From Pontibacillus chungwhensis (GTDB lineage Bacteria; Bacillota; Bacilli; Bacillales; BH030062): DNA of 64,000 nt. The stretch lies in assembly GCF_030166655.1 (NCBI RefSeq), contig NZ_CP126446.1:1488001-1552000 (forward strand), given 5' to 3'. Position 1 is the stretch's first letter. Each line of letters begins with the position of its first letter. The position numbers were made by a program, and so were the translations under genes. Positions 18,332 through 63,361 of this stretch are shown in pieces. Below the pieces are notes generated by a model. The model ran no database searches and was not told the DNA's origin. It was given only the letters and a program-made list of their open reading frames with translations.

Positions 18332-18510
18332 GCGGGGCCGTTCGTTTCCTTAAGTTAGGGGGTTGCTCGGGGACTGCGAGACTCCCGCGGGGTAAGGAGC
18401 CTAGGGGAGACCCCGGAAAGCGCGTAGCGATTGAGGAGGCTTCCCAGCTCCCCGCAGGAAAGCGAGTAGTCCCCGAGCAACCCCAAGCACTCATCAATCG
18501 TAACGGTCCT
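18332..18510. repeat. Palindromic dispersed element, copy 2
   Basis: Inner arms GGGGTTGCTCGGGGACT (18359) and the complement ending at 18484 enclose the shared core. Outer arms GGGGCCGTT / GTAACGGTCC are nearly complementary. Little else is seen in the 18201-18528 intergenic stretch. Confidence 0.85.
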
Positions 18511-22979: not shown

Positions 22980-22999
22980 GCGGGTAAGGTGCACTTCTT

Positions 23000-23112
23000 C
23001 TTATCTTTCAAGTGACTCGTCACTTGCTGGAAGGAGCACCACATCGTGTACGATAGGTTGCTGAAGCGTCTACGGACCAGATCCCTCGGCTTCTCTGAAT
23101 AAGAAATAAGAA
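23000..23112 (-). ncRNA. SAM-I (S-box) riboswitch of metI
   Basis: Read on the minus strand: CTTATTCAGAGAAG, CCGAGGGATCTGGTCC, GACGCTTCAGCAACC, GGTGCTCCTTCCAGCAAG and the closing AGATAAG, in the order of the SAM-I aptamer (P1, kink-turn, P3, P4). A terminator follows 21 nt later. SAM binding favours termination before metI. This agrees with the gene's identity as a methionine-synthesis enzyme. Confidence 0.95.
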
Positions 23113-33660: not shown

Positions 33661-33836
33661 GGGGCCGTTATGCAATTTTAGTCAGGGCTTGCCCGTAGAC
33701 TGCGAGACTCCCGCGGGGTAAGGAGCCTAGGGGAGACCCCGCAGTGAGCGATAGCGAACGAGGAGGCTTCCCAGCTCCCCGCAGGAAAGCGAGTGGTCCC
33801 CGGGCAAGCCCAAGCACTTTTCAACGTAACGGCCCC
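33661..33836. repeat. Palindromic dispersed element, copy 3
   Basis: Perfect outer arms GGGGCCGTTA / TAACGGCCCC and inner arms GGGCTTGCCCG (33685) / CGGGCAAGCCC (ending 33811) around the shared core. It abuts the 3' end of the chemoreceptor gene. Confidence 0.87.
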
Positions 33837-38766: not shown

Positions 38767-38841
38767 GTTTACGAAAGTATAGATTAAGAGAGTACAACAA
38801 ATGGACGCTCTCAAAATCATATATAGATAAATCCAACCGAC

Positions 38842-38934
38842 TCCACTTCCCTTCGCTGGTACTAACCAGATCAGGTTCAAAGGGACCAAGGATGACTCCT
38901 TATCTCAGCCAAAAAAATGGGCGCCCCTAGTGGA
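38842..38934 (-). ncRNA. TPP riboswitch of tenA-thiD-thiM-thiE
   Basis: On the minus strand: P1 TCCACT / AGTGGA, AGGGGCGCC, GGCTGAGATAAGG, CCTTTGAACCTGATCTGG and TAGTACCAGCGAAGGGAAGTGG, the THI-box in full. With the downstream terminator it should shut off the operon when TPP is plentiful. Confidence 0.97.
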
Positions 38935-39016
38935 CTTCCTATATTGTACCGTTACCTTAACATAGGTTTCCTTGGATTGTCTACTGTGATAGAAATTGGT
39001 AGGGGGAGATTCAGAA

Positions 39017-39336: not shown

Positions 39337-39356
39337 AAAGTTTAATACATTATGAA

Positions 39357-39451
39357 ACTACTAGGGGAGCCTGAATGGGCTGAGAGGAGAGCAAGCGAGC
39401 TTTCTGACTCTTACGAACCTGATCTGGGTCATACCAGCGGAGGGAAGTAGT
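39357..39451 (+). ncRNA. TPP riboswitch of thiW
   Basis: P1 ACTACT / AGTAGT, AGGGGAGCC, GGGCTGAGAGG, CTTACGAACCTGATCTGGG and CATACCAGCGGAGGGAAGTAG in THI-box order, followed by a terminator 34 nt later. Confidence 0.97.
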
Positions 39452-39484
39452 CAGGCGACACGTCTGTATACTCTACCATTCGAA

Positions 39485-59881: not shown

Positions 59882-60113
59882 GATGATACCTCCTATTAAA
59901 CATACTTAGCTAATTTACATAAAAATGAGGTGCTATGCAATAGATTTTCTCATGTAAGCGTCATTTTCATTGTTCGCTCTCATTGAACGTAAAAAGAGCT
60001 TGCGTAATGCCTGTTAAAAATTTTGGAGTGAGATTAATTGAGTTAGAGGGGAATCCATAGGTGAAAAAGAAACTATTCATTAAGTACAATTTCTAGTATA
60101 GAGGGGGATGGAT

Positions 60114-60890
60114 ATGAAGAGGTGGAACGTCTGGTGGATTGGCATCGTGCTCTTATTAAGTGGATGTGGCTCGGCTTCTATTCCGAATGGTTCCGATGAG
60201 GAAGGTGACTCAAATGATTATTACGAATCTGCTGAAGGCTTGGAAGGAGAATCTTTAAAAGAAGAGCTTCACAGGATTATTGATGATCATAAGGAATTAT
60301 CCTATGACGACGTGTGGGATGCGCTTCGTCAAACCGATGAAGACCCGGGGAATGCAAGCAACGTCTTGCTCCTGTACAAAGGAGCCTCTATTTCAAAAAA
60401 TGAAAACGGCGGCCTTGTGGATGAGTGGAACCGCGAGCACGTCTGGGCTAAATCTCACGGTGACTTCGGAACCCGTAGAGGTGCAGGGACCGATCTGCAT
60501 CACTTACGCCCTACGGATGTTTCTGTTAATTCGACCAGGGGCAACTTGGATTTTGACAATGGTGGCTCATTGCATTCAGAAGCCCCGGATACCTATTACG
60601 ATTCAGATTCATGGGAGCCGCGTGATGAAGTGAAAGGGGACGTGGCTCGAATGATCTTTTATATGGCAGTACGCTATGAAGGAGACAGCGGTGAATTGGA
60701 CTTAGAGATAGCGGATGCCGTTGGTACAAGCGGGCCAACGCTCGGGAAGCTCTCGACCTTGAAAGAATGGCATGAAAGTGATCCAGTAGATTCATTTGAA
60801 CAAAATCGAAACGAAATCATTTTTTCAGCCTATCAAGGAAATCGAAATCCCTTTATTGACCACCCAGAATACGTAGAGTTGATTTGGTGA
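60114..60890 (+). CDS. Secreted endonuclease I-family nuclease, lipoprotein
   Basis: Start at ATG 60114, six bases after GAGGGGG; the ATG at 60108 overlaps that site. The 258-residue product has a lipoprotein signal with lipobox LLSGC (Cys about 19), an acidic linker, then the endonuclease I fold: catalytic EWNREHVWAKSHG, GTDLHHLRPTDVSVNSTRGN and a C-terminal NRNEIIFSAYQGNRNPFIDHPEY. It resembles EndA/BsnI-type extracellular nucleases that degrade DNA and RNA. Being anchored outside the cell next to a secreted nucleosidase suggests nucleic-acid scavenging. Confidence 0.92.
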   Translation: MKRWNVWWIGIVLLLSGCGSASIPNGSDEEGDSNDYYESAEGLEGESLKEELHRIIDDHKELSYDDVWDALRQTDEDPGNASNVLLLYKGASISKNENGGLVDEWNREHVWAKSHGDFGTRRGAGTDLHHLRPTDVSVNSTRGNLDFDNGGSLHSEAPDTYYDSDSWEPRDEVKGDVARMIFYMAVRYEGDSGELDLEIADAVGTSGPTLGKLSTLKEWHESDPVDSFEQNRNEIIFSAYQGNRNPFIDHPEYVELIW

Positions 60891-60987
60891 GTGACGATCA
60901 AGAAAAGTAGGTCCCTGAAAAGACGAACATTTTAGTTTTGGTAATAAAAAACATTCGTGATTTTGATTGAATCGATTTAATTCTTCT

Positions 60988-61006
60988 GTTACAGTTACCT
61001 TGTAAC
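60988..61006. promoter_or_regulatory. Inverted repeat at the riboswitch promoter
   Basis: GTTACA-N7-TGTAAC, a perfect 6-bp inverted repeat whose centre lies about 25 bp before the guanine aptamer, overlapping the region expected for the promoter. Candidate repressor site; regulator unknown. Confidence 0.4.
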
Positions 61007-61023
61007 CACCTAAAAATTTTATC

Positions 61024-61094
61024 ACTCGTATATTCTCAGTAATACGGTCTGAGCGTTTCTACCTGGTTCCCATTGAAAGAACTAGACTACGGGT
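61024..61094 (+). ncRNA. Guanine-type purine riboswitch
   Basis: P1 ACTCGTA / TACGGGT; P2 CTCAG / CTGAG with loop TAATACGGT; J2/3 GTTTCTACC; P3 CTGGTTC / GAACTAG with loop CCATTGAAA; J3/1 GACTAC. The nucleotide that pairs with the ligand is C in GACTAC, the guanine/hypoxanthine class rather than adenine. A terminator follows 94 nt later, then the lipoprotein nucleosidase. Confidence 0.95.
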
Positions 61095-61187
61095 TGAAGT
61101 ATAGCCATGGACAGCTTCATCTATGTTGCTGTTCATAAGAAACACTACAATGACGTTTGTATAGGTTTCTCATACTTTAACTTTGCT

Positions 61188-61229
61188 GGTCTGGAAGGTA
61201 GAAAGGATTCTACCTTCCAGACCTTTTTT
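61188..61229 (+). terminator. Expression-platform terminator of the guanine riboswitch
   Basis: GGTCTGGAAGGTAGAA pairs perfectly with TTCTACCTTCCAGACC (loop about 4 nt) and is followed by six T. It ends 90 nt before the nucleosidase start. Confidence 0.92.
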
Positions 61230-61318
61230 ATGGAGAAAAATAAGACCCTGATCGAATGACGAGGGAATCGGTAAAAGGTTTAGGCGACAACTAGATTTCT
61301 CAAAAGGAGCGATGTAAC

Positions 61319-62191
61319 ATGAAGCAAAACGTATTCACAAAACAAGTAGCCATCATTGCAACATTATGTCTTATCTTACTGGCAGGATGTAGTTCCACGG
61401 CAGAATCACAAACATCTGAAGAAGAGGTTCAACCGATTCTGGTTCAGGGTCCGATGCCAATTGAAGCGGAAAACTTCGCCGATAAACTATCAGATGTGGA
61501 AGAAGAAACATCCGGCACATTTGTATTTTATAAAGGAAAGCTTGATGGATATCCTGTCATCGTTGCGAAAACAGGTAAAGGAATGGAAAACACAGCTGCT
61601 GCAACTGCCGTAGCAATCGAACTTTATAACCCTGCAGCGATTATTAATCAGGGTACTTCAGGAGGACACGATCCGAATTTGAATGTATTTGATATTGTGT
61701 TAGGTGAAAAAACGACAAACATTGGCTCTCTTAAGACAGGAGACCGAGCGGACGGAGAAGGAATCAAGCCAACGAACTGGATTCCAATGGACTTAATGGC
61801 TTCTGAAGGAAGTGCAGGAGAGGACCCTGATGCGGAGAAAGCTCGATTCTTTGAAGGGGACGAAGATCTTCTTGCCGCAGCAAAAGCGGTTAAAGATGTC
61901 CATACAGAAGGAAAAGTCGTTGAAGGAACGATTGGGTCTGCGGATGTATGGAATAATGAAGTCGACCGCATTCAATGGTTCCACGAAAATTACGGCACAT
62001 CTGTAGAAGAGATGGAAGGAGCAGCAGGGGCTCAAATCGCAAAAGCGTATGATGTTCCTTTCTTAGGTATTCGCATTCTTTCTAATAATAAAACAAATGG
62101 TGGACAGTATAACCCTGAAACAGCTAGCGCTAATCAGGAATATGTGTTTGAGGTTGTAAAAGAATATATCGATTCTTATGTAGAGAAGTAA
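61319..62191 (+). CDS. Lipoprotein nucleosidase of the MTAN/PNP superfamily
   Basis: A 290-residue lipoprotein: lipobox LLAGC, short acidic linker, then a nucleoside phosphorylase/MTAN fold. Seen: PMPIEAENFADKL, GTFVFYKGKLDGYPVIVAKTGKGMENTAAATA, INQGTSGGHDP and VEEMEGAAGAQIAKAYDVPFLGIRILSNN. Glu233 in EMEG aligns with MTAN Glu174. The MTAN catalytic Asp197, 23 residues on, is Asn256 here (ILSNN against ISD). Asn at this position is used by trimeric 6-oxopurine PNPs, so inosine or guanosine is a plausible substrate. The guanine riboswitch supports that. AAAAGGAG precedes the ATG. Confidence 0.9.
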   Translation: MKQNVFTKQVAIIATLCLILLAGCSSTAESQTSEEEVQPILVQGPMPIEAENFADKLSDVEEETSGTFVFYKGKLDGYPVIVAKTGKGMENTAAATAVAIELYNPAAIINQGTSGGHDPNLNVFDIVLGEKTTNIGSLKTGDRADGEGIKPTNWIPMDLMASEGSAGEDPDAEKARFFEGDEDLLAAAKAVKDVHTEGKVVEGTIGSADVWNNEVDRIQWFHENYGTSVEEMEGAAGAQIAKAYDVPFLGIRILSNNKTNGGQYNPETASANQEYVFEVVKEYIDSYVEK

Positions 62192-62199
62192 GTTTGTAT

Positions 62200-62233
62200 A
62201 CACATGCGGTCCTAGACCGCATGTGTATTTTTT
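62200..62233 (+). terminator. Terminator of the nucleosidase gene
   Basis: ACACATGCGGTC and GACCGCATGTGT arms followed by a T-run, 9 nt after the stop codon. Confidence 0.93.
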
Positions 62234-62293
62234 TCCACTCTTTGGAGCTGATATATGTTACTTAGATGGAGCCGCCTGTGTTTGATGAGTGCT

Positions 62294-62422
62294 TGGGTTT
62301 GCTCGGGGACAACTCGCTTTCCTGCGGGGAGATGGGGAGCCTCCTCGTTCGCTACCGCTCTCTGTGGGGTCTCCCCTAGGCTCTTTCCCCCGCGGGAGTC
62401 TCGCTGCCACCGAGCAAACCCA
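62294..62422. repeat. Palindromic dispersed element, copy 5 (inverted)
   Basis: Inner arms TGGGTTTGCTCGG / CCGAGCAAACCCA enclose the shared core in the opposite orientation to copies 1-3. Confidence 0.87.
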
Positions 62423-62475
62423 GGCTATAAGGAGAGGCAGCTCTGAGGCACGAAAGAAGAGAGCTCTCATACTCA

Positions 62476-62638: not shown

Positions 62639-62661
62639 GTAGAATGAACGTTCTATCTAAA
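62639..62661. promoter_or_regulatory. Shared 23-bp operator candidate, copy 1
   Basis: GTAGAATGAACGTTCTATCT plus AAA, containing the half-palindrome TAGAA-N6-TTCTA. It is identical except for one base to 63339-63361 ahead of the MFS gene. Confidence 0.7.
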
Positions 62662-63338: not shown

Positions 63339-63361
63339 GTAGAAAGAACGTTCTATCTAAA
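63339..63361. promoter_or_regulatory. Shared 23-bp operator candidate, copy 2
   Basis: GTAGAAAGAACGTTCTATCT plus AAA; 22 of 23 bases match copy 1 at 62639-62661. It begins 46 bp before the MFS start codon. Confidence 0.7.

Follow-up and report, generated by a model that had tools for sequence, protein, structure and literature searches.

A guanine-I riboswitch with an antiterminator complementary to its ligand pocket precedes a predicted exported 6-oxopurine nucleoside hydrolase of the MTAN fold in Pontibacillus chungwhensis

Among the described hydrolases of the MTAN fold, futalosine hydrolase (MqnB) is an enzyme of the menaquinone pathway, and a periplasmic enzyme of Aeromonas hydrophila (MtaN-2) has reportedly been published and cited as an MTA/SAH nucleosidase. 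Two reference sites of MTAN, Glu174 and Asp197, lie 23 residues apart. Futalosine is treated in a passage of one study as an inosine analogue of the menaquinone pathway (PMC6302742). In purine nucleoside phosphorylases (PNPs), sections of two papers describe an Asn that accompanies 6-oxopurine specificity, and its replacement by Asp widens specificity to adenosine with 6-oxopurines still being used (PMC6128611, PMC5074518). Since hexameric PNPs carry an Asp that is compatible with 6-oxopurines, as part of one of these papers reports (PMC5074518), the residue rule is firm only as Asn against adenosine, and it is a rule shown for PNPs. For the RNA partner, guanine recognition by purine-type aptamers is ascribed to U22, U51 and C74 at the ligand in a section of PMC9295807, and the adenine type carries U74 in a passage of PMC11477304. 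The 2'-dG-III riboswitch, also described in PMC9295807, has non-consensus sequence in each of its three joining regions and is a predicted ON switch. Here we describe a locus in a 64,000-nucleotide stretch of the P. chungwhensis genome (the window; contig NZ_CP126446.1) in which a guanine riboswitch stands before a gene for an MTAN-fold lipoprotein. Our literature search, mostly at the level of titles and with subscription papers outside its scope, found no link between a guanine riboswitch and this gene, a statement that extends no further than that search.

A search of the whole window with the full Rfam purine riboswitch model (RF00167) gave a match at 61006..61109 on the forward strand with 68.8 bits (cut-off 37, E 5.4e-10). 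The three helices, on the same strand, are P1 (61024-61030/61088-61094, so that P1 starts at 61024), P2 (61035-61039/61049-61053) and P3 (61063-61069/61079-61085). In xpt numbering, with positions assigned by us, the ligand contacts are U22 at 61031, U47 at 61056, U51 at 61060 and C74 at 61087. Conservation was assessed in an alignment (A2) of 37 of the 40 aptamer-bearing sequences, namely the window and relatives described below, with the near copies L039, L041 and L044 omitted. The helices are 99.1% paired, U22, U47 and C74 are present in all 37 sequences and U51 in 36, and J2/3 is without insertion. With three helices, a score above the Rfam purine cut-off and U22, U51 and C74 in place, the aptamer is by its sequence of the guanine-I class and not of the adenine (U74), xanthine-II (position 51 changed) or 2'-dG-III (joining regions altered) classes. 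A 2'-dG-type aptamer had been considered as a candidate and was ruled out because U51 and the joining regions match the consensus. Loop L3 has 9 nt in 31 of the aligned aptamers, 8 in four, 7 in one and 10 in one; among the other aptamers of the genome, seven of eight being measurable by pattern, it has 7 nt in six and 8 nt in one. In two Paenibacillus aptamers (L026 and L051), U replaces A next to U75 on the 3' strand of P1, which breaks the second pair from the ligand.

The aptamer is followed by an intrinsic terminator at 61188..61223 (forward strand; 16 pairs, a 4-nt loop, then TTTTTT), and a scan of 60880-62300 found three terminator-like sites compared with a shuffled mean of 0.7. Among the relatives the hairpin is frequently imperfect, and a perfect-stem scan matched in just six of 40 sequences (the window and 39 relatives), one of these matches (L045) being spurious. 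Because that scan caught few terminators, the GGTAGA strand was sought and folded instead, and a GGTAGA hairpin was found at the matching place in 31 of the 40; folding was applied to these 31, and the nine sequences without an exact GGTAGA were inspected as sequence.

The aptamer core finds its complement in the terminator's 5' half. The resulting antiterminator (61056..61204, forward strand, 25 pairs) has three parts: 61056-61064/61196-61204, in which AGGUAGAAA (61196-61204) pairs with the J2/3 sequence UUUCUACCU (61056-61064); 61082-61087/61189-61194, in which GUCUGG pairs with CUAGAC, the latter including C74; and 61093-61102/61172-61181, which takes in the last two bases of the P1 3' strand. 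Antiterminator formation thus occupies J2/3 and C74 along with some of P3 and the end of the P1 3' strand. In the segment 61020-61206, the minimum-energy fold contains all 25 antiterminator pairs at -55.7 kcal/mol, compared with -46.7 kcal/mol when the aptamer is forced. Once the transcript reaches 61224 and the terminator is complete, the terminated fold has the minimum energy (-71.7 kcal/mol), and aptamer plus terminator stands at -71.2 kcal/mol versus -59.7 kcal/mol for the forced antiterminator.

Across the 37 aligned sequences, 93.0% of the antiterminator cells are paired, compared with 31.5-46.0% when the partner strand is slid by one to three columns, though the structure was drawn from the window sequence, which is itself in the alignment, and is favoured over the slid versions by that alone. 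The comparison with shuffles gave mixed results. Cells changed on both sides (15 versus 8.2, with 3 of 500 shuffles as high), the covariation score (0.160 versus 0.144; 1 of 500) and the paired fraction (93.0 versus 92.4%; 12 of 500) exceeded the shuffles, while pairs changed on both sides (4 versus 3.2; 208 of 500) and further pair types (19 versus 19.4; 395 of 500) did not stand out. One pair has changed on both sides from U-A to C-G in 11 sequences, in columns also constrained by P3 and the terminator. The covariation above shuffles is modest, and it is the slid control that carries the claim. Because the antiterminator is complementary to the core, a ligand that stabilises the core would free the terminator strand, which is the logic of an OFF switch. 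Antiterminator and terminator are mutually exclusive in ligand-free folding and in their conservation, as in guanine-I OFF switches, and on these grounds guanine is predicted to turn the gene off. As far as sequence can tell, we regard the riboswitch and its OFF platform as nearly certain. The initial annotation had already described a full purine aptamer with the guanine-specifying C and a terminator after it, and had proposed switching off; the Rfam score with C74 at 61087, the strong hairpin and the specific, conserved antiterminator support these readings, and the complementarity between the antiterminator strand and the aptamer core is a new observation beyond it.

The gene under this switch (61319..62191, forward strand) encodes a protein of 290 amino acids whose sole domain is PNP_UDP_1 (PF01048; 138.3 bits, Pfam cut-off 25.1). 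By the lipobox rule, its start (61319..61390) is a signal sequence with the lipobox LAGC and Cys24, so that by motif the protein qualifies as a bacterial lipoprotein; the lipobox pattern recurs in 35 of 42 relatives, and the other seven appear hydrophobic near the N-terminus by eye. The key residues are Glu49 (MTAN Glu12), Met232, Glu233 (MTAN Glu174), Arg252 and Asn256, which occupies the place of the catalytic Asp197, and Glu233 and Asn256 are 23 residues apart. A terminator scan found a terminator-like hairpin at 62198..62228 on the forward strand, and the gene seems to be transcribed on its own. A simple scan of the locus for sigma-70-like promoters found none (shuffles 3.2).

Several other elements were noted in the window. 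An interspersed palindromic repeat at 62270-62450 (arms 62291-62330/62386-62425, 70% complementary) has at least 46 matches in the genome, with 40 of 129 first-look candidates scored, and two more copies lie, by coordinate subtraction, near 18359-18497 and 33676-33824. The 16-mer GAACGTTCTATCTAAA occurs exactly twice, at 62646-62661 before a TetR-type gene (62670) and at 63346-63361 before an MFS transporter gene (63385), with 0.03 chance matches expected at up to two mismatches; the pair is likely a shared TetR operator. Two TPP riboswitches stand back to back at 38831-38938 (reverse strand) and 39353-39462 (forward strand) with 414 bases between them, and a SAM riboswitch lies at 22998-23105 (reverse strand).

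Relatives of the protein were searched for with peptide patterns that exclude the Asn stretch, which yielded 43 (42 from Bacillales and one from Alteromonas); the closest named relative is a Pontibacillus salipaludis protein with 94% identity. Recognition of their open reading frames required EEME or ELME and the QGTSGGH region with no requirement for Asn, and all 42 relatives with a recognised frame have R[IVT]LSNN with the Asn 23 residues after the Glu. The remaining relative (L056) matches residues 108-263 only, with no frame recognised. Fixed in 42 of 42, the Asn and its spacing can hardly be a matter of chance.

An aptamer above the Rfam cut-off lies upstream in 39 of the 43 relatives (15/19, 12/12 and 12/12), the exceptions being L032 (the second Peribacillus cavernae contig), L034 (Niallia), L054 (Alteromonas) and the partial match L056. 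Of 299 sampled genomes of the class, including that of P. chungwhensis, seven have a match with an E-value of 1e-30 or lower, in two cases with an in-frame stop, so the gene is patchily distributed. Among eight further Asn-type loci (L089, L090, L114 and L116-L120), whose species may overlap with those of the 43 relatives, six have the aptamer. The other two, L119 and L120, lack a purine aptamer and are also the ones interrupted by an in-frame stop, which may point to joint decay of gene and switch. None of five loci of Asp-type lipoprotein paralogues has a purine aptamer.

A collection of plasmids, in which some records are as long as chromosomes, provided eight records with a relative (Acinetobacter 5, Metabacillus 1, Photobacterium 1 and Pantoea 1). 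Four of the eight are annotated at the match, all as MTA/SAH or methylthioadenosine nucleosidase, so that the label which, on the reading of the initial annotation, would be misleading is in use; on the relatives it is probably wrong about the substrate. In the four plasmid-record regions inspected, all proteins have the Asn and one region, that of Metabacillus, has the aptamer. No purine aptamer was found at the four Gram-negative relatives examined (L054, L122, L123 and L124), which shows that enzyme and switch are separable. We also clustered the neighbouring reading frames of 46 loci (the window, the 43 relatives, L089 and L090) and found no neighbour gene conserved in more than 10, those 10 being mostly Cytobacillus, which rules out an operon or conserved neighbourhood. 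As the surrounding genes differ between loci, in Bacillota only the riboswitch accompanies the gene consistently.

The protein family was compared with MTAN-type sequences, futalosine hydrolases and one DeoD in a joint alignment of 60 sequences, with group names set by us. Asn256 falls at the Asp197 place, and this place holds Asn in 20 of 20 Asn-type proteins, although these rows were picked with a pattern demanding LSN and are thus biased, the unbiased tally being the 42 of 42 relatives. Asn is likewise found in 14 of 14 futalosine hydrolases scoring above their model's cut-off, which were drawn from 149 genomes of the phylum. In contrast, the place is held by Asp in 15 of 15 MTAN-like sequences, five of five Asp lipoproteins and five of five cytosolic MTANs (25/25), as well as in the single DeoD compared. 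The Trp of the Asn-type proteins at position 211 (20/20) is Phe in 24 of the 25 MTAN-type sequences. The equivalents of Glu12 and Glu174 are each kept in 20 of 20 Asn-type proteins, which speaks for hydrolysis. The tree recovers the Asn lipoproteins as a single clade (98/98), which does not group with that of the futalosine hydrolases (100/100); since the branch parting the two has a support of only 88/92, branch lengths are large and the root was placed for display, a separate origin of the Asn is a suggestion. The protein initially annotated as a surface lipoprotein of the MTAN/PNP fold, a nucleosidase with Asn in place of Asp exactly 23 residues after the Glu, thus keeps that description: the domain score, LAGC with Cys24, the two Glu equivalents and the conserved Asn all agree with it, and the signal sequence supports a predicted extracytoplasmic placement. 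The analogy that had been drawn with trimeric PNPs holds for the Asn at the base-contacting residue, but futalosine hydrolase, which shares the fold and is itself a hydrolase, is the better analogue.

The alternative that survives best, yet which we consider unlikely, is that the protein is a cell-surface nucleosidase for MTA/SAH (or adenosine) comparable to Aeromonas MtaN-2 and acts on adenine nucleosides despite its Asn, with the switch tying it to purine salvage in general. A Foldseek search with an AlphaFold2 model (mean pLDDT 83.2; built from alignment A1, which holds 36 of the 44 sequences formed by the window and its relatives) returned 5b7q as the best match (E 1.3e-29, 40% identity) and then ordinary MTANs, so the closest solved structures are named MTA/SAH nucleosidase, and a passage of a review on a periplasmic MTA enzyme points the same way. 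If the Aeromonas relative turns over MTA well, the Asn would be compatible with adenine nucleosides in this clade. The profile models divide: the protein narrowly passes the MTA/SAH model TIGR01704 (74.5 bits, cut-off 73.8) but falls far short of the main MTAN model NF004079 (95.3 bits, cut-off 169), and it also stays below the futalosine hydrolase model TIGR03664 (71 bits, cut-off 124.7). Of the features of an MTA/SAH nucleosidase it has the PNP_UDP_1 fold and the Glu12 and Glu174 equivalents, and Asn256 in place of the catalytic Asp197. Going by the titles of PDB entries 1z5o, 4p54 and 4oy3, crystals of engineered Asp-to-Asn MTANs from E. coli and Helicobacter pylori were obtained with MTA or SAH. 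This is consistent with lost activity and speaks against this alternative, as does an Asn that no recognised relative has exchanged.

The purine genes elsewhere in the 4.17 Mb genome bear on the same question. Five genes have the PNP_UDP_1 domain. One (L001) is a trimeric-type PNP with the motif CISNMAAG, which shares the Asn, and its flanking genes are presumably a pyrimidine-nucleoside phosphorylase and a phosphopentomutase. Another (L002) is a second MTAN-fold lipoprotein, which lacks a purine aptamer, has Asp as its catalytic residue and scores 250.3 bits against the MTAN model (cut-off 169). The product of a third is shorter and by its sequence looks like a cytosolic MTAN, a fourth reads as DeoD-like, and the fifth is the gene described here. 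With an apparent cytosolic MTAN and an Asp lipoprotein at hand, another surface enzyme of the adenine type would be superfluous, and L002 and the window enzyme may instead form a surface pair that divides 6-amino and 6-oxopurine nucleosides. NCBIfam matches identify the genes that follow the other eight purine aptamers as purE, xpt, ade, a NupC-type transporter gene, guaA and a weak RihC-type match; two of the eight have no NCBIfam match at 1e-20 and resemble AzgA/PbuG-type permeases. The ade gene (adenine deaminase) is itself preceded by a guanine-type aptamer, and this favours the adenine reading to the extent that the switch alone neither settles the substrate nor excludes adenine release.

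Less probable still is that the substrate is a different nucleoside of the 6-oxopurine type (xanthosine, 2'-deoxyguanosine, deoxyinosine, or one modified or phosphorylated at the 5' position), the loop 139-176 recognising the 5' side. This stretch is strongly conserved in A1, with K139, W154, P156, D158-L159, S162-E163-G164-S165 and R176 invariant, it is unlike MTAN by eye, and the AlphaFold2 model has low confidence at 141-170 (block means 59-69). A lipoprotein of the Endonuclease I family (PF04231, Pfam; 60108..60890, forward strand) adjoins upstream, outside the riboswitch unit, yet such a neighbour occurs in four of the 46 loci only, three of them close kin, and none of the evidence fixes the 5' group. 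That the protein is a phosphorylase, as the Asn shared with the trimeric-type PNP L001 might suggest, is very improbable and was rejected on the Glu12 equivalent, as this water-activating Glu, which a PNP would be expected to lack, is kept in 20 of 20 proteins with Arg in the one DeoD compared, and extracellular ribose-1-phosphate would be of little use.

We therefore favour a stand-alone purine-scavenging unit built on an exported hydrolase of 6-oxopurine nucleosides. When guanine (or hypoxanthine) runs short, the terminator's 5' half would pair, as it is transcribed, with the empty core at J2/3, J3/1, some of P3 and the last bases of P1; with the antiterminator formed, no terminator would arise and the lipid-anchored nucleosidase would be made. 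Outside the membrane, its substrates would be inosine, guanosine and possibly the corresponding 2'-deoxynucleosides; Glu49 would activate the water, Glu233 would hold the ribose and Asn256 would make the contact to O6/N7 of the base. The base set free would be imported by purine permeases, so named by sequence likeness and some apparently also under guanine riboswitches, and would then close the switch. An exported hydrolase is very likely and the predicted preference for 6-oxopurine nucleosides fairly probable; the switching off by the enzyme's own product base we infer, and we hold the account as a whole with moderate confidence. We give an even chance to the wider proposal that exported MTAN-fold hydrolases of 6-oxopurine nucleosides in Bacillota and Gammaproteobacteria make up a family so far overlooked and filed as MTA/SAH nucleosidase, in which Asp changed to Asn independently of futalosine hydrolase and which in Bacillota is under a guanine-I switch with an antiterminator complementary to the ligand pocket. 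If so, a single residue separates two chemistries that automatic annotation has merged, and exported enzymes assigned to methionine recycling or quorum sensing, including the solved Aeromonas structure, would move to purine scavenging. The guanine switch provides an independent metabolic hint in this matter, and the guanine-riboswitch regulon of the genome, otherwise made up of transport, salvage and synthesis, would gain an exported step.

In comparison with known systems, the Aeromonas hydrophila periplasmic enzyme (5b7g, 5b7n, 5b7p and 5b7q) is the closest, sharing the fold, export, EEME and the Asn at the Asp197 place at 40% identity; it differs in its published assignment as an MTA/SAH enzyme, and the four examined Gram-negative relatives lack a purine aptamer. 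Futalosine hydrolase (TIGR03664) shares hydrolysis on the MTAN fold and the Asn (14/14), but belongs to a separate clade, and no lipobox was found in the 14 sequences. Canonical MTAN (MtnN) has the same fold and the equivalents of Glu12, Met173, Glu174 and Arg193, and the window family departs from it in Asn for Asp197, Trp211 versus Phe, the different conserved stretch at 139-176 and export. Among riboswitches, a 2'-dG-III relative of the guanine riboswitch is likewise placed before a purine nucleoside hydrolase gene in PMC9295807, whereas the aptamer described here has consensus joining regions and is OFF by folding, which sets it apart from that class. The guanine-I terminator riboswitch of the xpt type shares U22, U51, C74 and the predicted OFF direction, and the window riboswitch differs from it in an L3 of mostly 9 nt, an antiterminator strand that invades J2/3 itself and a gene for an exported nucleosidase downstream.
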